The notes beneath the pieces were generated by a model. The model saw nothing but the letters and a program-made list of their open reading frames with translations. It was not told the origin of the DNA and did not search any database. From Xanthobacteraceae bacterium (GTDB taxonomy: Bacteria > Pseudomonadota > Alphaproteobacteria > Rhizobiales > Xanthobacteraceae), in assembly GCA_031291475.1 (NCBI GenBank), contig JARLIY010000043.1, forward strand, positions 1 to 64,000: a stretch of DNA of 64,000 nt, given 5' to 3'. A program made the position numbers and the translations under genes. Shown one piece after another: positions 4,269 to 52,754 of the stretch; the stretch's first letter is position 1, and every line of letters starts with the position of its first letter.

Positions 4269-5393
4269 CTAAGCCGCGCTGCGGCCGGCCGATCCCCATG
4301 GCCCAAACCGCACGCCGGTCGGCAGCGCCTGGTGCAGCATGAGCATTTCGCCGATGGTTTCCGACGTTACCAGACCGACCAAACGCTCCGATGCATCGAC
4401 GACCGCCACGGCCGGCACGGACTTTTCCTGGAGCAGCCGGAAGGCTTCGTCGAGGCAGCGATCTTTGCTCATCGTGGGGATGTGGGCGGTCATGGCGTCG
4501 GCTACACGTGCGTCCGGACCGCGCTGCTTGAGCGCGCGGACGATGTCGTTGCGGCCCAATATGCCGAGCGGCCGGCCGCTGCCGTCCACCACCGGAAATT
4601 CGCTCTGACTGGTGTGCAAGAGAGTCTCGATCGCGGCGTCGATATGCTCGTCGGGCGTCAACGTCGCGTACTGCGTCACCATCGCGGCGGTCACCGGCAC
4701 GCCGTGCGACATGGCGCGGGTCGCCACGAGATGCGCTTCCGCGGACGCGGCGAGGTGGACGAAGATGGCGATGAAGATCAAAAGCGGATTGCCGAACAGG
4801 CCGAAGAAGCCGAGCGCGAATGCGACCCACTGCCCGATCATGGCGGCAACTTCGGTGGCGTGGACGTAGCCGAGCCGGGTGGCGAGCAGCGCGCGCAGCA
4901 CGCGCCCGCCGTCCATCGGAAACGCGGGGATCAGATTGAACAGCGCGAGGAACAGATTAACCAGCGCGAGCCGGTCGATCATGCTCACGTCGGCATTGCC
5001 GATCACGGCAAGGCGGTCGGCCGAAAGATTCGCGCCGCCGATGAATACCAGCGCGAGCCCGATGACCACGTTGACCAAGGGCCCGGCGATGGCGATGAGG
5101 AATTCCTGGCTCGGCTGTTCCGGTATGCGTTCGAGCCGCGAAACGCCGCCGATCGGCAGCAGGATCACGTCGGGGGTCCGGATGCCGAAAGCGCGCGCGG
5201 TGAAGATATGGCCGAATTCGTGCAGCAGCACGCACAGGAACAGGAGCACGATGAACAAGAGGCTGCTCCAGGCCACCTGCGGCCCCCCGGAAAGGTATTG
5301 CACGCCGAAAATCCAGGCGAGCAGCAGGAGGAAGGTCACATGGATGCGCACGGCGGTGCCGGCGACCGATCCGATGTTCAAAGACCAGCCCAT
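4269..5393 (-). CDS. Site-2 protease (M50) with tandem CBS domains
   Basis: Intramembrane zinc metalloprotease, 374 residues. The N-terminal half has several membrane segments, the zinc-site motif HEFGH (residues 58-62) and the second conserved motif [11 protein letters not shown] (153-163), which supplies the third ligand. The C-terminal third (about 235-355) holds two CBS repeats ([19 protein letters not shown] and [19 protein letters not shown]) that usually sense adenylate nucleotides. The length and layout match the bacterial M50B/CBS subfamily. The substrate is unknown, and there is no adjacent anti-sigma factor to suggest one. Confidence 0.9.
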
Positions 5394-19897: not shown

Positions 19898-20071
19898 CCG
19901 TCGGGGCGCCGCCGCCTGCGGCACCTGCTGCAAAATTCACGCAGCCGTGAGCAGGAGACTGAAACCCGCCACTTGAGCGGCCGTATCTCGATGCGGTGAG
20001 GCGATCACTTCGCGTCCCCCGGCACAATGCGCCGGCACTCTCATCGCAACACGTCAGATATGGAGCTCCTC

Positions 20072-20647
20072 ATGTCCAAGCGTTTCGCCCTGATCGCCGC
20101 CGCGGCGGCTCTTGCCCTGACCGCCAGTGCTGCGGTCCCGCTCTCCGCGGCGGAGATGTCGGAAAAGACCGTCAATGTCGGCGGCGCGCCGATGTATCCG
20201 TCGAAGAACATCATCCAGAACGCAGTGAATTCGAAGGACCACACGACGTTGGTCGCGGCGGTAAAGGCTGCCGGCCTGGTCGATACCCTGCAAGGTCCGG
20301 GCCCGTTCACCGTGTTCGCGCCGACCAATGAAGCCTTTGCCAAGTTGCCGGCGGGCACGGTCGACAACCTGCTCAAGCCCGAGAACAAGGACACCCTGGT
20401 GAAGGTGCTGACCTATCACGTCGTCCCCGGCCGCATGAGCGCCCTCAATCTGATGAAGGCGGTCAAGGAAGGCGAAGGCACGGCCAAACTAAAGACCGTC
20501 GCGGGCGAGGATATCTGGATCAAGCAGGCCGGCCCCGGCAAGCTCACCGTCACCGATTCCAAAGGCGACGTCGCCGTGGTGACGATTGCCGATGTGATGC
20601 AGTCGAATGGCGTCATCCATGTCATCGACACCGTCCTGTTGCCCTAA
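20072..20647 (+). CDS. Fasciclin (FAS1)-domain secreted protein
   Basis: 191 residues: signal peptide (1-25, cleavage near SAA) and one FAS1 domain (about 45-190). FAS1 hallmarks are DHTTLVAAVKAAGLVDTLQGPGPFTVFAPTNEAFAKL, the YH motif in LTYHVVPGRM and the C-terminal NGVIHVIDTVLLP. FAS1 proteins are adhesive or surface proteins; such genes often sit beside SigF/NrsF-type stress loci. ATG 20072 has GGAG at 20062. Ends in a strong terminator, so it is a separate transcript from sigF. Confidence 0.93.
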   Translation: MSKRFALIAAAAALALTASAAVPLSAAEMSEKTVNVGGAPMYPSKNIIQNAVNSKDHTTLVAAVKAAGLVDTLQGPGPFTVFAPTNEAFAKLPAGTVDNLLKPENKDTLVKVLTYHVVPGRMSALNLMKAVKEGEGTAKLKTVAGEDIWIKQAGPGKLTVTDSKGDVAVVTIADVMQSNGVIHVIDTVLLP

Positions 20648-20664
20648 GGCAGGTCGGCACGCAG

Positions 20665-20696
20665 GGGGCCGGCGGCAACGCCGGCCCCGGCGTTTT
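20665..20696 (+). terminator. Rho-independent terminator after the fasciclin gene
   Basis: Perfect ten-base stem GGGGCCGGCG/CGCCGGCCCC closed by a GCAA tetraloop, followed by GGCGTTTT. It lies 18 bases after the fasciclin stop and just upstream of the sigF promoter, insulating the two. Confidence 0.8.
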
Positions 20697-20701
20697 GTGG
20701 T

Positions 20702-20727
20702 GTAACCGTCTGAATATTTGCAACGAA
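20702..20727 (+). promoter_or_regulatory. SigF-type ECF promoter for sigF-nrsF
   Basis: GTAACC at 20702-20707, a 16-base spacer, and CGAA at 20724-20727, 51 bases before the sigF ATG. The architecture GTAACC-N16-CGAA equals the promoter recalled for Caulobacter SigF, the sigma factor paired with NrsF, implying autoregulation. A second copy with the same spacing is at 22148. Confidence 0.8.
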
Positions 20728-20777
20728 AGAAAAGATAAGAAACTGCGCGATTTCCGCGCAGAGGTGCCGAGAACCCG

Positions 20778-21485
20778 ATGACGCAGGGGCTTCAACCGAA
20801 CGTGATAGCGCTGCGCGCCGGAGGGCGGTTGCTTCCCTCGGCATTTGCCTTCATGCGGACCCGGAAAACCCGTGTTACGGATGCCCGGATGGCCAGGGCC
20901 GAGCCACAAAACCGAAGCGCCGACGATTTGCGTCGCTCCAGCCAGATGGCGGCGGCGCAGGCCGGCGATCGCGCGACCTACGAGGCGCTGCTGCGTGACT
21001 GCGTCCCGCTTATCAGAGCCTTTGCCGCCCGCCAGGGTGTCCCTGCGGACCATCTCGACGACGTCGTCCAGGACGTGCTCCTCACCATCCATCGCGCGCG
21101 TCAAACCTATGATCCGACGCGCTCCTTCACTGCCTGGCTGCGCATTATTGCCGAGCGCCGCGCAATCGATCTGCTGCGCCGGTTCGGCCGGCAGCGTGCG
21201 CGCGAAATTCATTCTCCCCTGGCGTTTGAATCCTACGCCGACGACACCCTACGTCCCGCGCATAACGGCGACGATGCCGGCCGTTCAAATCGCGTGAAAA
21301 AAGCGCTGACGACACTCCCGGAACGGCAGCGCGAGGCAATTCAAGTTTTGGTTTTGGAAGATCGGTCGCTCGCCGAAGCGGCAATTGCCACACGGCGCAC
21401 CAAAGGTGCGTTAAAGGTCAGCCTCCACCGGGCGCTCAAAGCGCTCCGCGCCAAATTTGCAGGGAAGGATTTAGGGAAGCCATGA
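20778..21485 (+). CDS. sigF: ECF sigma factor, SigF type (NrsF-controlled)
   Basis: 235 residues from ATG 20778; starts at 20889 (ATG) or 20946 (ATG) would remove an unconserved leader. Region 2: YEALLRDCVPLIRAFAARQG, HLDDVVQDVLLTIHRARQTYDP and SFTAWLRIIAERRAIDLLRR. Region 4: LPERQREAIQVLVLEDRSLAEAAIATRRTKGALKVSLHRALKALR. Directs polymerase to oxidative or reactive-chlorine response genes. It overlaps nrsF by four bases (ATGA) and is preceded by its own GTAACC-N16-CGAA promoter. Confidence 0.9.
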   Translation: MTQGLQPNVIALRAGGRLLPSAFAFMRTRKTRVTDARMARAEPQNRSADDLRRSSQMAAAQAGDRATYEALLRDCVPLIRAFAARQGVPADHLDDVVQDVLLTIHRARQTYDPTRSFTAWLRIIAERRAIDLLRRFGRQRAREIHSPLAFESYADDTLRPAHNGDDAGRSNRVKKALTTLPERQREAIQVLVLEDRSLAEAAIATRRTKGALKVSLHRALKALRAKFAGKDLGKP

Positions 21486-22177
21486 CTTCGACCCCTTACG
21501 ATCGTCTGATCCGCGGGCTTGCCGCCGATCTCAAGCCGGTACGCCGATTACCGTCGCCCGTGCTCCGCGCGTTCGCCTGGCTCGCCATGGTCGCCGCGCT
21601 TGCCGCCGGATTGGCGTCCTTCGCCGACCTGACTGCCGTTTGGGAGCGGATCATTGCGGCGCCAGACATGTGGCTTGCCGTCATCGGTTCGACTCTGACC
21701 GCCGTTCTTGCCGTCATCGTTGCGTTTGAGCTGAGCCTGCCTGATGCCTCCCGCGGTTGGGCTGTGCTGCCGCTGCCCGCTGTGGTGCTTTGGATTGCCG
21801 CGAGCGGCTTTGGTTGCTTGCGAGGCTGGATCGTACCCCAGAGCCACGTCGCGGCTCTGGGGGAAGCGCGCGATTGCCTTATCTTCATCGTCGCCTTGTC
21901 GGTGCCGCTGTCGGCGCTGCTGCTATTGATGTTGCGCCGCGCTTTCCCGCTTTATCCCGGCATGACGGCCGCGATCGGCGGCCTCGCCGTGGCGGCCGCC
22001 GCGGCGACGCTACTCAACTTTTTTCATCCCTACGACGCGGCGGCGACCGACCTCGCCGTGCACGCCGGCGCGGTGGCGATCGTCGTCGTCGCCAATCGCG
22101 CGCTGGGCGGCAGAGTTTTCGGCCCCTTGGCATACGCGCCGATCAATGTAACCGAAGGTGAGGTCGCACCGAATTAG
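21482..22177 (+). CDS. nrsF: NrsF/DUF1109 membrane anti-sigma factor
   Basis: 231 residues with six likely membrane segments (about 30-47, 63-83, 94-110, 132-150, 160-180, 192-206) and a cytoplasmic N-terminus (YDRLIRGLAADLKPVRRLPSP, family hallmark). Holds SigF at the membrane until oxidative stress. Only two cysteines exist: Cys112 and Cys132, at the two ends of the predicted periplasmic loop between segments 3 and 4. The usual LHC motif after segment 5 is replaced by FFH (residues 180-182). Its 3' end contains the mrpX promoter. Confidence 0.9.
   Translation: MTSTPYDRLIRGLAADLKPVRRLPSPVLRAFAWLAMVAALAAGLASFADLTAVWERIIAAPDMWLAVIGSTLTAVLAVIVAFELSLPDASRGWAVLPLPAVVLWIAASGFGCLRGWIVPQSHVAALGEARDCLIFIVALSVPLSALLLLMLRRAFPLYPGMTAAIGGLAVAAAAATLLNFFHPYDAAATDLAVHAGAVAIVVVANRALGGRVFGPLAYAPINVTEGEVAPN
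22148..22173 (+). promoter_or_regulatory. SigF-type ECF promoter for mrpX-yedZY, inside nrsF
   Basis: GTAACC at 22148-22153, 16-base spacer, CGAA at 22170-22173. It overlaps the last codons of nrsF and lies 56 bases before the mrpX start. Same elements and same spacing as the copy in front of sigF, so effector genes can be transcribed separately from and more strongly than the sigma/anti-sigma pair. Confidence 0.8.
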
Positions 22178-22212
22178 GAGGCGATGGCGCCGGTCAGCGT
22201 CATCGAACATCC

Positions 22213-22222
22213 TTAAGGAGGA
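22213..22222 (+). promoter_or_regulatory. Near-perfect Shine-Dalgarno sequence of mrpX
   Basis: TTAAGGAGGA eight bases before the mrpX ATG, complementary to nearly the whole anti-Shine-Dalgarno sequence. It is much stronger than the sites of neighbouring genes, as expected for a peptide needed in bulk. Confidence 0.8.
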
Positions 22223-22229
22223 TCAACCA

Positions 22230-22472
22230 ATGACCCGTTCCACCACCGTCCTGTCGCTTGCCGCCGCGACCTTGAGCCTTGCGCTCGCCTTCGCGCCGGC
22301 CGCCTTCGCCGACGACATGTCGAAGGACAGCATGTCCAAGACCGACACGATGAAGAAAGACGACGGCATGAAAAAGGACACGATGTCGAAGGATTCCATG
22401 TCCAAAGACAGCATGTCGAAGGACACGATGAAGAAAGACGACGGCATGAAAAAGGACGACATGAAGCACTAG
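22230..22472 (+). CDS. mrpX: Methionine-rich periplasmic peptide (MXKDX pentapeptide repeat, MrpX-like)
   Basis: 80 residues: a 27-residue signal peptide ending APAAFA, then a 53-residue mature peptide built only of MSKDS/MSKDT/MKKDDG-type units. It has ten Met in 53 residues, with Lys, Asp, Ser, Thr, Gly and one His, and no Cys or aromatic residues. It matches the MXKDX repeat family and, in context, MrpX of Azospira suillum, where methionines are oxidised by hypochlorite and then reduced again by YedY. Likely intrinsically disordered. Preceded by a SigF-type promoter and a very strong Shine-Dalgarno site. Confidence 0.88.
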   Translation: MTRSTTVLSLAAATLSLALAFAPAAFADDMSKDSMSKTDTMKKDDGMKKDTMSKDSMSKDSMSKDTMKKDDGMKKDDMKH

Positions 22473-22484
22473 GTCACATTCGCG

Positions 22485-22516
22485 TGTGCCGGGTTCGGTT
22501 TCTCGAATCCGGCACA
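22485..22516 (+). other. Stem-loop between mrpX and the cytochrome b gene
   Basis: Thirteen-base-pair stem (arms 22485-22497 and 22504-22516, one G-T pair) with a six-base loop, starting 12 bases after the mrpX stop. No T-tract follows, so it may be a leaky terminator or an mRNA 3'-end stabiliser that keeps mrpX transcript above the downstream genes. Confidence 0.55.
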
Positions 22517-22573
22517 ACGCGATGTTAAATGTCCTATCGGCCGGACCCGGCAACGAGCGAACGAAGCCAACCG

Positions 22574-23206
22574 ATGAGTGTCCAAACCGCAGAGCGTCTC
22601 CCGTTAGGAATTGACGCCTCGCATAGCGTCATCCACCCGCGTTGGGTGCGCGTGACCCACTGGATCAATGCGCTGGCGATGCTGATGATGATCGGGTCGG
22701 GCTGGCAGATCTACAATGCCTCGCCGCTGTTCGGCTTCGAATTTCCCCGTCAGATCGCGCTTGGCAATTGGCTCGCCGGCGCGCTGCTATGGCATTTCGC
22801 GGCGATGTGGCTCCTGGTAATCAACGGCTTCGTTTACCTCACGCTCGGCATTGTCACCGGCCGCTTCCGCCGCAAGTTTTTTCCGATCCGTCCGAGCGAT
22901 GTTCTTCACGATCTCTTTGCCGCGCTGCGGGGCAAGCTGTCGCATGACGACCTTAGCGTCTACAACGCGGTGCAGAAGCTCCTCTATCTCGGCATTCTGC
23001 TCACCGGAATCGTGATCGTGCTGTCGGGCCTGTCGATCTGGAAGCCGGTACAGTTTCAGGCTTTGACGAGCTTCTTCGGCGGTTACAATACCGCGCGTTA
23101 CGTGCACTTCGCCGCGATGACGGCGATCGTATCGTTTCTCGTGGTGCATGTGGCGCTCGCGGTTCTGGTGCCGAAAAGCCTGCGCGCCATGATCGTCGGC
23201 CGTTGA
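22574..23206 (+). CDS. Cytochrome b561-type membrane protein (electron donor to YedY)
   Basis: About 210 residues with four to five membrane segments, of the cytochrome b561/Ni-hydrogenase b-type family. Candidate heme-ligand histidines: H29 (RVTHWINALAM), H74 (LLWHFAAMW), H178 (YVHFAAMT) and H192 (LVVHVAL), numbered from ATG 22574; ATG 22529 would add 15 residues. Takes quinol electrons to the periplasmic molybdoenzyme encoded 14 bases downstream. It corresponds in position to YedZ1 of the Azospira locus, though it is not the classic MsrQ fold. Confidence 0.85.
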   Translation: MSVQTAERLPLGIDASHSVIHPRWVRVTHWINALAMLMMIGSGWQIYNASPLFGFEFPRQIALGNWLAGALLWHFAAMWLLVINGFVYLTLGIVTGRFRRKFFPIRPSDVLHDLFAALRGKLSHDDLSVYNAVQKLLYLGILLTGIVIVLSGLSIWKPVQFQALTSFFGGYNTARYVHFAAMTAIVSFLVVHVALAVLVPKSLRAMIVGR

Positions 23207-23219
23207 ACAGGAGAAGCCG

Positions 23220-23996
23220 GTGCCCCGTCAACGCAAGCCCATCCCCGGCGTCGATCCCAAGCTCCTGATCAAGGATGCGGCGAAGCTTTTGCCCGAGGCG
23301 TCGCGGCGCTTCTTCCTGCGCGGCGCCGCGAGCCTTGGCGCGCTCGCCGTGCTTTCTGGTTGCGATATCATCGACGGCGATTCCTCGGAGAATGCGCTGC
23401 GCGTCATTTCGCGCTTCAATGATCGCGTCCAGGCTCTGCTGTTTAATCCGAACACGCTGGCGCCGGAATATCCGGAAAGCATGATCACGCGGCCGTTTCC
23501 GTTCAACGCCTATTACAGAGAGGACGAGGCGCCCGACATTGACGGCGACAAATGGCAGCTCGAAATCGGTGGACTGGTCGATAACAAGAAGCCGTGGACG
23601 CTTCCTGAGCTCTACAAGCTGCCGGAAGTTTCGCAGATCACGCGCCATGTCTGCGTCGAAGGCTGGAGCGCCATCGGCTCCTGGCAGGGCGTCAGGTTGT
23701 CCGATTTCCTCAAGGTGATCGGTGCCGACACCCGCGCCAAATACGTCTGGTTCCAGTGCGCGGAAGGCTATTCGAACACCATCGACATGCCGACCGCGCT
23801 GCATCCGCAGACGCAACTGACGCTGAAATTCGATCACCAGATCCTGCCGCGCGCCTACGGCTTCCCGGTCAAGTTCCGCATTCCCACCAAGCTCGGCTTC
23901 AAAAATCCCAAATACGTCACCGCGATGTGGGTGCAGAACAACGACGCCGGCGGCTATTGGGAGAACCAGGGCTACAACTGGTTCAGCGGGCTCTGA
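23220..23996 (+). CDS. yedY: Molybdopterin-dependent reductase, YedY/MsrP-like, Tat-exported
   Basis: 258 residues from GTG 23220 (AGGAG at 23209). Twin-arginine signal with RRFFLRG (residues 29-35) followed by a hydrophobic stretch and LSGC, which has the form of a lipobox (Cys48). The sulfite-oxidase-fold Moco domain carries the molybdenum-ligand cysteine Cys145 in HVCVEGW, with WSAIGSWQG and KFRIPTKLGFKNPK downstream. In this context it most likely reduces methionine sulfoxide in MrpX and other periplasmic proteins. Last gene of the SigF unit. Confidence 0.88.
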   Translation: MPRQRKPIPGVDPKLLIKDAAKLLPEASRRFFLRGAASLGALAVLSGCDIIDGDSSENALRVISRFNDRVQALLFNPNTLAPEYPESMITRPFPFNAYYREDEAPDIDGDKWQLEIGGLVDNKKPWTLPELYKLPEVSQITRHVCVEGWSAIGSWQGVRLSDFLKVIGADTRAKYVWFQCAEGYSNTIDMPTALHPQTQLTLKFDHQILPRAYGFPVKFRIPTKLGFKNPKYVTAMWVQNNDAGGYWENQGYNWFSGL

Positions 23997-24084: not shown

Positions 24085-25206
24085 ATGTCCAGCCCCAAGA
24101 AACTCCTCCTTCTCCCCGGCGACGGCATTGGCCCGGAAGTCATGGCCGAGGTGAAGCGGCTGCTTTCTTTCTTCGCCAAAGCGGGCATCGGCGATTTCAC
24201 CTTCGAGGAAGGGCTGGTCGGCGGCTGCTGCTACGACGCCCGTAAAGTCTCGATCACCGAGGAGACCATGGCCAAGGCGAAAGCCGCCGATGCCGTCATT
24301 TTCGGTGCGTGCGGGGGGCCGAAATGGGACAACGTGCCATACGACGTGCGGCCCGAAGCGGGGCTTTTGCGGCTGCGCAAGGACCTCGGGCTGTTTGCCA
24401 ATATCCGTCCGGCGATCTGCTACCCGGCGCTCGCGGAGTCTTCCAGCCTCAAGCGCGACGTGGTGGAAGGGCTCGACATCATCATCCTGCGCGAGCTGAC
24501 CGGTGGCGTCTATTTCGGCGAGCCCAAAACCATCACCGATCTCGGCAACGGTCAGAAGCGCGCCGTCGACACCCAAGTTTACGACACCTACGAGATCGAG
24601 CGCATCGCCCGCGTCGGCTTCGAGCTTGCCCGCCGGCGCCGCAACAAAGTCACTTCGATGGAGAAGCGCAACGTCATGAAGACCGGCGTGCTGTGGCGCG
24701 AGGTCGTCAGCGAAGTGCATGCGCGCGAGTACAAAGACGTGCAGCTCGAGCACATGCTGGCGGATGCCGGCGGCATGCAGCTCGTGCGCTGGCCGAAGCA
24801 GTTCGATGTCATCGTCACCGACAATCTGTTCGGCGACATGCTGTCGGACATCGCGGCGATGCTGACCGGCTCGCTCGGCATGCTGCCTTCGGCCTCGCTC
24901 GGCGAGGTCGATGCCAAGACCAAGCGGCGCAAGGCGCTCTACGAGCCGGTGCACGGTTCCGCGCCGGACATCGCCGGCAAGGGCATCGCCAATCCGATCG
25001 CCATGCTCGCCTCGTTCGGCATGGCGCTGCGCTACTCGTTCAATATGGCTAAGGAGGCCGACCTCATCGACGCCGCGATCGCCACCACGCTCGCCAAAGG
25101 GCTGCGCACCGCCGACATCAAGTCGGAGGGCGCAAAAGTCGTCAGCACCAGCGAAATGGGTCAGGCGATCGTCGGCGAGCTGGAACAAATCGTGACGCGG
25201 CGATAG
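24085..25206 (+). CDS. leuB: 3-isopropylmalate dehydrogenase
   Basis: 373 residues; oxidises and decarboxylates 3-isopropylmalate in leucine synthesis, in the cytosol. [14 protein letters not shown] at the N-terminus, substrate/metal motif [18 protein letters not shown], and NAD-binding [19 protein letters not shown]. Length normal. It stands 88 bases after yedY and apart from leuC and leuD, which are about 7-10 kb to the right on the other strand. Confidence 0.97.
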
Positions 25207-25889: not shown

Positions 25890-27128
25890 ATGATGACGCG
25901 ACGCAGGCTCCTTGAGGCCGCCGGAGCAGGCGTCGTATGCGCCGCCGGCGGGTTGGGTGCCCCGCTTCGGTCTGCGGCCGACGCCGCTAGCGTGCCGCTG
26001 TCGCCGGGAGTGCCTGTCGGCCTCGACGGCTCGGCCGTGCTCGAGGCGCTGCCGGGCAAAGAGCCGCTGATCAAGCTGTCTTACCGGCCGCCGAACTACG
26101 AATCTCCGCTGCACTATTTCGACACGCCGATCACCCCGAACGATCGGTTCTATGTTCGCTATCACCTCACGGACATCCCTGATGCCAAGGCTCTCGATGC
26201 CAAGACCTACAAGATCGCCATTGGCGGGGAGGGGGCGAACGCGCAGGCCGAAATCACGCTCGACGAGCTGAAGAGATTCCCGGCTTACGAGATCGTCGCG
26301 GTCAATCAATGCTCGGGAAACCGCCGCGGCCTGTCGCAGCCGCATGTCCCCGGCGTGCAATGGGGCTATGGCGCCATGGGCTGCGCGCGATGGAAAGGTG
26401 CGCGGCTCAAGGATTTGCTCGACAAAGTCGGCCTGAAAAAAGAGGCGATCGAAATCGCGTTCAACGGCGCCGATGGGCCGTTATTCGACAAGACTCCTGA
26501 CTTCATCAAGAGCCTGCCGGTGTGGAAAGCAATCGATGAATCGACCTTGGTCGCCTATGAAATGAACGGCGAACCGCTGCCGCATTTCAACGGCTATCCG
26601 GCGCGTCTCGTCGTGCCCGGCTGGACCGGCACGTATTGGATGAAACATCTGATTGACATCAGCGTGTTGACCAGACCGCAGGGCGGCTTCTGGATGAATC
26701 CGGCCTATCGCATCCCGGCCGGCCAATTCCCGGCGGTGGCGCGCTTTGTGACACAGGAAACCGCCACCACCGTCCCGATCACCGAAATGGTGGTCAACTC
26801 GCTGATCACCAGCCATGCCGACGGCGCTGCGGTGAAAGCCGGTACGATCACGGTGCGCGGCCTTGCCTGGGACGGCGGTTATGGCATCCGCGCCGTCGAG
26901 GCTTCGATCGACGGCGGACAAAGCTGGTCGACGGCGATGCTCGGCGAGGATCTCGGCCGCTACGCCTTTCGGCTGTGGAGCTTCGATCTCACGGCAAAGC
27001 CCGGCAAGAACACGCTGACGGTCAACGCCACCAGCAATCGCGGCGAGACCCAGACGACCACCTTGCTCTTCAACCCCGCCGGCTACCACAACAACGTCAG
27101 GCAAAGCGTGACACTCAATGCCGCATAG
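25890..27128 (+). CDS. sorA: Sulfite dehydrogenase, molybdopterin subunit (SorA-like)
   Basis: 412 residues. Tat signal MMTRRRLLEAAG; Moco domain with the molybdenum-ligand Cys141 in VNQCSGNRRG; C-terminal Mo-co dimerisation domain (about 290-400) with RGLAWDGGYGIRAVEASIDGGQSW. Oxidises sulfite to sulfate in the periplasm and passes electrons to SorB. The following cytochrome gene overlaps it, as in other sorAB operons. Confidence 0.88.
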   Translation: MMTRRRLLEAAGAGVVCAAGGLGAPLRSAADAASVPLSPGVPVGLDGSAVLEALPGKEPLIKLSYRPPNYESPLHYFDTPITPNDRFYVRYHLTDIPDAKALDAKTYKIAIGGEGANAQAEITLDELKRFPAYEIVAVNQCSGNRRGLSQPHVPGVQWGYGAMGCARWKGARLKDLLDKVGLKKEAIEIAFNGADGPLFDKTPDFIKSLPVWKAIDESTLVAYEMNGEPLPHFNGYPARLVVPGWTGTYWMKHLIDISVLTRPQGGFWMNPAYRIPAGQFPAVARFVTQETATTVPITEMVVNSLITSHADGAAVKAGTITVRGLAWDGGYGIRAVEASIDGGQSWSTAMLGEDLGRYAFRLWSFDLTAKPGKNTLTVNATSNRGETQTTTLLFNPAGYHNNVRQSVTLNAA

Positions 27129-39137: not shown

Positions 39138-39341
39138 TCGTTGTGCCTTAACCAAACACGTCATACGCCCGAGGGCGCATCGCGCTGTCGGGCGGTGACC
39201 TCCGGCCTCCTTAAGCCGGTCGGCAGATGAACTTTCAAGTCTCTTACGAAAGCGTGCGGAAAATAGGTGCAGACCCCGCTGCCGTCAACCGCGGCCTTTT
39301 GCTGCCGCGCCGTGGGGCCGGGCTGGTATAATCCAAACTGA

Positions 39342-52353: not shown

Positions 52354-52383
52354 TAAAAAAGGCCGGCGCGATGCCGGCCTTTA
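52354..52383 (+). terminator. Rho-independent terminator after the DUF1223 gene
   Basis: AAAAAAGGCCGGC-gcgat-GCCGGCCTTT; ten-base stem with A-tract on one side and T-run on the other. Confidence 0.8.
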
Positions 52384-52754
52384 CGCAAATCGGGGATTGA
52401 ACCGTACTGGAACTATACCTTACCAGAAACTCTGGCCCGGTCCGTCCACACCCCGGGGGGCTGGGGGGCTGAGGAATCCGGAATGCGATCCGGACCGGGC
52501 CCTGAGGCAACAGTCGTCTGTTTCGCAGTTCAGCTTGGCATGTGCTTGACCGAAATGGGGCCGCTTTATGATTGGCCTAACGAATCCGTGATTCCGCGGG
52601 CAAAAATGCCGCACCCGGCGGTGGCTGGATCGGCAATGCGATTCCACGCCAACCCGTCTTACCGGGAATAGACCCTGGCAAGCCCCTTGCCGGCGCATCT
52701 CTCCGGCGCGATCATGAAGCGATCGTGAAGCTCCAATGACCAGGGAGGCGCCGC
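52384..52754. other. 370-base stretch with no recognised gene
   Basis: Between the terminator and the DUF2794 gene. Short open frames on both strands have no family resemblance or convincing start. A GGTTCAATCC-like string on the minus strand near 52395 does not extend to a tRNA cloverleaf. The DUF2794 Shine-Dalgarno (GGGAGG) lies at 52743-52748. No other function seen. Confidence 0.6.

Follow-up and report, generated by a model that had tools for sequence, protein, structure and literature searches.

The analysis presented here concerns a five-gene locus in a window of 64,000 nucleotides, that is, the whole stretch of DNA that was analysed, from contig JARLIY010000043.1 of a Xanthobacteraceae bacterium related to Bradyrhizobium. 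The locus encodes an extracytoplasmic function (ECF) sigma factor, SigF, a membrane anti-sigma factor of the NrsF type, a methionine-rich peptide, MrpX, a b561-type cytochrome and a molybdenum cofactor (Moco) protein resembling MsrP and YedY. Together these most probably constitute a methionine-sulfoxide cycle in the cell envelope that is switched on by oxidants through an ECF16 sigma factor. The locus is of a published kind, represented by SigF/NrsF/MrpX/YedYZ of Azospira suillum, BcrS/AbcS/BcrXQP of Brucella and C3566-C3568 of uropathogenic Escherichia coli (UPEC). An initial annotation of the same DNA was right about this kind but wrong about what makes the locus special. Neither of the two promoters appears in it, nor do the lipobox, the stem-loop between cistrons, the altered NrsF cysteines and the cassette character of sigF-nrsF-peptide, all of which are described below.

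The five adjacent genes which that annotation had named at 20702-23996 were all found, on one strand (+) and with Pfam or TIGR02953 scores of the corresponding families (Table 1). Placement of SigF in ECF16 is suggested by its partner, its promoter and the literature. Its open reading frame as called has 235 amino acids, and an ATG at 20889 that better fits the relatives may be the true start. Downstream of its AFA site the MrpX peptide consists of 53 residues, among them 10 Met, 14 Lys and 14 Asp, with no Cys and one His. The b561-type cytochrome is the presumed electron partner of the MsrP-like protein, whose N-terminus carries a twin-arginine (Tat) motif, SRRFFLRG, and then a lipobox, LSGC (Cys48), and which is predicted to be a Tat lipoprotein.

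Two exact matches to TGTAAC-N17-CGAA lie at the expected starts, one ahead of sigF-nrsF and the other within the 3' end of nrsF, ahead of mrpX-b561-yedY. The ECF16 consensus has been given as (T/C)GTAAC-N17-CGAA (PMC8315932). Base composition predicts 0.05 exact matches in the 64 kb on both strands. When the pattern was loosened to GTAAC-N15-17-CGAA the window gave three matches, the two promoters and a site on the opposite strand at 4347. Shuffled sequence gave 0.64 matches on average, and a count of three was reached in 4 of 100 shuffles. No GTAAC-CGAA or GTAAC-CGWW site was found in the window upstream of fas1, the gene preceding the locus. In the organism's own genome the only other match with an initial T is at L051 (G000:C46), 148-174 (L and G numbers are our handles for loci and genomes). 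The site is followed, within 148-1463, by an insertion sequence-like transposase frame and then by thioredoxin-like and CcdA-like frames, all named by eye, and an insertion may have separated an ECF16 site from its target there.

Between mrpX and b561 lies a strong stem-loop that has no T run. Folding of this gap in the window and in seven relatives gave z-scores of -2.3 to -4.4, with 0-4 of 200 shuffles equally stable, and stems in the same place were seen in all seven (L265, L268, L269, L088, L091, L093 and L097). With such a structure the peptide could be made in large excess over the enzyme. In the cycle that we propose, SigF would be held by NrsF at the inner membrane until the periplasmic thiols C112 and C132 of NrsF are oxidised. 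Released SigF would then drive its own promoter and the second promoter, the latter yielding much of the Met-rich peptide and less of b561 and MsrP. The oxidant, hypochlorous acid (HOCl) or possibly peroxide, would be absorbed by the peptide as methionine sulfoxide. Electrons from the quinone pool would pass through cytochrome b561 to the lipid-anchored MsrP-like enzyme, which would reduce the methionine sulfoxide of the peptide as well as other oxidised envelope proteins.

Table 1. Features of the locus and of its upstream flank, with the basis of each assignment
Feature	Position	Strand	Basis
sigF, ECF16-type sigma factor	20778-21485	+	Pfam sigma r2 48.3 bits, r4_2 33.7 bits
nrsF, six-helix membrane anti-sigma factor (DUF1109)	21482-22177	+	PF06532 71 bits, cut-off 26.8
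mrpX, exported MXKDX Met/Lys/Asp-rich peptide, 80 amino acids	22230-22472	+	TIGR02953 73.7 bits, cut-off 41
b561-type membrane cytochrome	22574-23206 (alternative start 22529)	+	PF01292 79 bits
MsrP/YedY-like Moco protein, GTG start	23220-23996	+	PF00174 102 bits
Promoter 1, TGTAAC-N17-CGAA (ECF16 consensus), ahead of sigF-nrsF	20701-20727	+	sequence match
Promoter 2, TGTAAC-N17-CGAA, within nrsF 3' end, ahead of mrpX-b561-yedY	22147-22173	+	sequence match
Strong mrpX/b561 intercistronic stem-loop, no T run	22480-22522	+	fold, z -3.8
Terminator-like stem-loop, short T run, 3' of fas1	20664-20696	+	fold
FAS1 (fasciclin-domain) secreted protein, start uncertain	20027-20647	+	PF02469 124 bits

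Comparison with the published systems supports the functional class. The reactive-chlorine system of A. suillum (PMC4623255, PMC5748585) likewise comprises an ECF sigma factor, a DUF1109-type anti-sigma factor, a Met-rich peptide, a YedY-type reductase and a membrane partner; the likeness is one of gene content and functional class, as given in literature descriptions. The match to this system in content and class that the initial annotation had proposed holds, and extends to the Brucella and UPEC relatives. In Brucella melitensis the HOCl-induced and protective BcrS/AbcS/BcrXQP system has a sigma and anti-sigma pair of ECF16 and, ahead of each of its two units, a site close to TGTAAC-N17-CGAA; its effector unit consists of MXKDX peptide, membrane partner and MsrP-like protein in that order. 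Its units are divergent, whereas those of the window are co-directional with promoter 2 inside nrsF, and AbcS has the pair C129/C179 where the window NrsF has C112/C132 (PMC8315932). The UPEC proteins C3566 and C3567 protect against peroxide and, with C3568, correspond to the cytochrome b, the YedY-like protein and the Met-rich peptide; in UPEC the two-component system OrhK/OrhR stands in place of SigF/NrsF, the response is to peroxide, and the peptide comes last and not first (PMC8550376). The UPEC and window proteins probably belong to the same clade, as judged from E. coli copies including that of UTI89. EcfF/OsrA of Bradyrhizobium and SigF/NrsF of Caulobacter also combine an ECF16 sigma factor, a six-helix DUF1109 anti-sigma factor and a related promoter, but they govern other regulons and their anti-sigma factors carry C129+C179 and C131+C181, respectively, the second cysteine of each pair being absent in the window NrsF (PMC3420878, PMC3511200). 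The description of the locus as a probable reactive-chlorine defence is not supported in its specificity for chlorine: reactive chlorine is one of several published inducers, and the UPEC relative responds to peroxide.

Analysis of the Moco protein is consistent with an MsrP-like enzyme. The lipobox cysteine (Cys48), the Mo ligand Cys145 and Cys180 are kept in all 130 aligned rows (109 distinct), and Cys145, Glu147 and Asn96 are invariant (n=30). The sequence around the Mo cysteine is CVEGW, as in MsrP. Comparison of the enzyme model with the PDB placed E. coli MsrP first (1xdy/1xdq, Foldseek E 3e-14), and in a profile search against the PDB 1xdq reached 3e-28 with a plant sulfite oxidase as runner-up at 1e-18, so that by E-value the MsrP of E. 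coli MsrPQ is the closest solved structure. Unlike MsrPQ, the window enzyme is predicted to be a lipoprotein, and its membrane partner is of the PF01292 family and not of the MsrQ type.

The partner in the window has PF01292 as its sole Pfam match to E 0.01, with no match of the PF01794 or ferric-reductase type, to which MsrQ belongs. The initial annotation took the b561 partner and the FAS1 neighbour as signs of a variant system, and neither survives comparison. Of 100 loci (L058-L157), 99 have a b561 gene next to YedY and the other (L117) is cut by a contig end; PF01292 was scored by all six partners run through Pfam (L073, L074, L213, L212, L209 and L265). All of these except L074 have a linked peptide, and L213 is a SigF/NrsF-linked Caballeronia locus. 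FAS1 is the usual neighbour and apparently a separate transcription unit. Membership of the sigma-driven operon was rejected for it, as the terminator-like stem-loop and promoter 1 lie in between and fas1 seems to form a unit apart from those driven by the sigma factor. In the Bradyrhizobium group (L058-L062, L100-L157) fas1 is syntenic with b561 in 58 of 63 loci, 57 of which are distinct in the gap, and all 58 have GTAAC-N16/17-CGTA directly ahead of b561. Of these blocks 56 have length 26, and their spacers comprise 40 distinct sequences. Of the remaining five, L142 and L144 have the motif, the Nitrobacter loci L112 and L140 do not, and L117 is cut before b561. The b561-YedY genes of this group are probably under an unlinked ECF sigma factor. 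Their motif resembles the EcfF consensus, with an incomplete match, and the EcfF table names no gene as sulfite oxidase or YedY (PMC3420878). The supposition that the closest cassette-free relatives, too, have an ECF16 site before b561 was not borne out. Six of these (L079-L083 and L086) share another element upstream of b561, seen by eye as a GAATGTGA ... TTTG(C/T)TA-like block, and perhaps use yet another controller.

Downstream of the Moco gene is a gene at 24085-25206 that we take to be leuB, and beyond it, at 25890-27128, a separate gene for a SorA-like sulfite dehydrogenase (NCBIfam SorA 449 bits, below the cut-off of 600), which is also present near the locus in some relatives. Rfam gave no match at gathering scores within the five-gene locus. 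Elsewhere in the window it identified the small RNAs BjrC174 (52357-52592, -, 67 bits) and ffh (39159-39209, -, 57 bits).

At a threshold of E 1e-15, 23 of 248 genomes of the family, own genome included, have an NrsF match. Of the 22 others 14 were examined (13 and G387, which is L207), and five of these carry the cassette. The initial annotation had proposed that gene order be compared across genomes, and the full order sigF-nrsF-peptide-b561-YedY recurs in L265, L268 and L269, the YedY frame of L269 being broken in two. One genome (G934) has fas1-sigF-nrsF with both promoters on one contig (L266) and b561-YedY-leuB on another (L278), with no peptide seen, and L267 has sigF-nrsF-peptide without b561-YedY ahead of leuB. 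The other nine (L270-L277 and L207) have sigF-nrsF, and neither peptide nor b561-YedY was detected in the stretch. Paired promoters are found in all six family cassette loci (the window and L265-L269); of these 12 sites 11 have the spacer N17 and one N16, and nine begin with T and three with C. Over 190 genomes of the class TIGR02953 scored above its cut-off in the own genome only; at E 0.001 it matched in six of the 190. As a survey tool this model is too stringent, and Met-rich peptides were therefore sought by composition, which can miss or over-call them.

Within the genus, 13 of the 16 non-own first-copy YedY loci (80% or more) were taken, the contig-cut G999, G977 and G1042 being omitted. 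One of these is L278; searches of the other 12 (L279-L290) turned up neither sigF nor nrsF nor a peptide, and nine of the 12 have fas1 directly upstream of b561. The 80 relatives named in the YedY search are the top-scoring ones among at least 572, and most of them are Bradyrhizobium. A tree of 72 YedY rows places the window and L078, from the same genome as L278, in a clade of 17 rows (support 99) whose other 15 rows are cassette-free. In this tree L078 was scored as a non-carrier, its contig ending in b561, although the cassette is on another contig (L266), and three row pairs are one locus twice. For the window's genus it is simpler to assume that sigF-nrsF-peptide was gained at a site flanked by fas1 and b561; family-wide, gain and loss are inseparable. 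Identity between the window and its congener G934 is 75% for sigF and 70% for nrsF, against 89% for fas1, 92% for YedY and 90% for leuB, and either faster change or a second import would account for the excess divergence of the regulators.

Linkage extends beyond the family. A tblastn search against plasmids returned 608 records, of which six stretches were opened; five belong to the YedY clade of the window and one, Pararhizobium L214, to a distant clade. In Caballeronia (L213) genes for a DUF1109 protein and a sigma factor run divergently to b561-YedY-MXKDX, the intervening stretch holding two ECF16 sites, and in Rahnella (L212) a histidine kinase and a response regulator precede b561-YedY-MXKDX. 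Two E. coli loci, L209 and L210, have b561, YedY and a Met-rich peptide; in L210 there is also a two-component pair, and b561 is in two overlapping frames. The search found b561 and YedY in Paraburkholderia (L211), and no peptide was detected there. Between the window and the E. coli plasmid locus L209 identity is 54% for YedY and 55% for b561. Among 5426 E. coli genomes the L209 gene is present in 73, always on plasmids, and that of L210 in 282, including UTI89, with 288 of its 289 places chromosomal. In the distant YedY clade, too, sigma factor, peptide and b561-YedY are linked (L073).

The sensor cysteines of NrsF are where the locus departs from the systems studied. In OsrA, C129 and C179 are needed for normal function (PMC3420878), and in Caulobacter NrsF alteration of C131 and C181 disturbs control (PMC3511200). 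The window NrsF has cysteines at 112 (codon 21815-21817) and 132 (codon 21875-21877). C132 aligns with OsrA C129 and His182 with OsrA C179, and thus the cysteine of the fourth transmembrane helix (TM4) is kept and the second member of the studied pair is a histidine. Among 73 aligned rows, 36 have the studied pair only, 32 the window pair only, two all three cysteines and two the TM4 cysteine alone, and one (L255) is a fragment; L228 and L238 were dropped as unalignable, and there are three identical row pairs. For the two main types, which make up 68 rows, the NrsF tree requires a single change, on a branch of length 1.65 with a Shimodaira-Hasegawa-like approximate likelihood-ratio test (SH-aLRT) value of 100; this tree and that of YedY are quick trees with SH-aLRT support only. 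Rows of the window type came from searches that had the window protein as query; those of the studied type were mostly top-scoring Pfam matches (30 loci of 59 matches). These differing searches could sharpen the split, and the frequencies of the types are meaningless, only the split itself being informative. The Caballeronia NrsF (L213) is of the studied type. In the structural model (mean predicted local distance difference test score 88) C112 is close to where helix 98-117 ends and C132 close to where helix 125-152 begins, on either side of one short TM3-TM4 loop that would be periplasmic if the N-terminus is inside. As far as the literature on the cysteines of NrsF-type anti-sigma factors was covered, it names only the C129/C179-type pair, and the window pair was not found in it.

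Several results weigh against the proposed cycle. Motif counts in the own genome do not exceed those of a reversed-pattern control (strict 9 against 17, looser 18 against 19), so no wider SigF regulon is supported there. A linked peptide was undetected in 53 of the 72 rows of the YedY tree, on which the sigma-plus-peptide label is unclustered (six changes for six labelled carriers, with shuffles as low in 500 of 500), and the MXKDX-like peptide after the L209 YedY scores 38.8 bits, below the TIGR02953 cut-off of 41. The MsrP model of NCBIfam (NF003767, an equivalog) ranks first for the enzyme but at 70.4 bits against a cut-off of 207, and structural TM-scores are 0.55-0.57 for MsrP and 0.56-0.57 for SorA; with a sub-cut-off score and no separation from SorA, the family does not fix the substrate. 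Published inducers also disagree, being HOCl in Brucella, peroxide in UPEC and metals in Caulobacter, where SigF responds to chromate and cadmium and not to reactive oxygen species (PMC3511200), while for RpoE7 of Sinorhizobium meliloti no inducer was found among those tried (PMC6180224).

It is conceivable, if improbable, that the locus is instead a heavy-metal or thiol-stress switch whose peptide would bind metal, for example copper, without scavenging oxidant. The control of the YedY gene CC2748 by the metal-responsive SigF/NrsF of Caulobacter (PMC3511200) would fit such a function, as would the Met- and Asp-rich composition of the peptide and the thiols that NrsF requires. All three published loci with a Met-rich peptide and a reductase nevertheless answer HOCl or peroxide, and the peptide has a single His and no Cys. 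We consider it rather improbable that the Moco protein is a sulfite dehydrogenase or another S- or N-oxide reductase supplied with electrons through b561. It is a member of the sulfite oxidase superfamily, and the MsrP and TM-scores just given leave it room. Set against this are the scores of the SorA, SoxC and SorT models (34, 35 and 15 bits against cut-offs of 600, 420 and 570), all below the MsrP score, together with the CVEGW motif, the lack of a PF03404 dimerisation domain, the best PDB E-value being that of MsrP, and the presence of the distinct SorA-like protein downstream. Very improbable is an accidental order, in which sigF-nrsF-peptide merely landed in a functional fas1-b561-yedY set such as the cassette-free loci of the genus might represent, since promoter 2 faces the peptide operon, a similar site is present in all six cassette loci, and the linkage recurs in lineages as distant as Caballeronia and L073, which an accident would hardly repeat.

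The methionine-sulfoxide cycle belongs to a functional class already published, and a specialist would find nothing surprising in the locus as such. The variant of the sensor cysteines and the history of a plug-in cassette were not found described in the literature as covered here. We suggest, tentatively, that there are two ancient classes of NrsF sensor, in which the partner of the TM4 cysteine lies either in the TM5-TM6 loop (studied class) or at the end of TM3 (window class), and that controller cassettes have repeatedly been plugged into a FAS1/b561-MsrP locus. The cassettes would bring their own peptide and two matched promoters, and the controller of the enzyme would keep changing, from class II SigF-NrsF in the window to class I in Caballeronia, a two-component system in enterobacteria and an unlinked ECF sigma factor with a GTAAC/CGTA promoter in Bradyrhizobium. 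If this is true, the window class of NrsF should sense a different oxidant or use a different disulfide. The locus may offer a natural re-wiring of the cysteine pair of a six-helix anti-sigma factor for envelope oxidant sensing, comparable with C129/C179 of OsrA. The pairing of an MsrP-like lipoprotein with a b561 cytochrome in place of the MsrQ type bears on the route by which electrons reach the enzyme, and the repair enzyme would be one whose place in the genome stays fixed as its regulators are exchanged.

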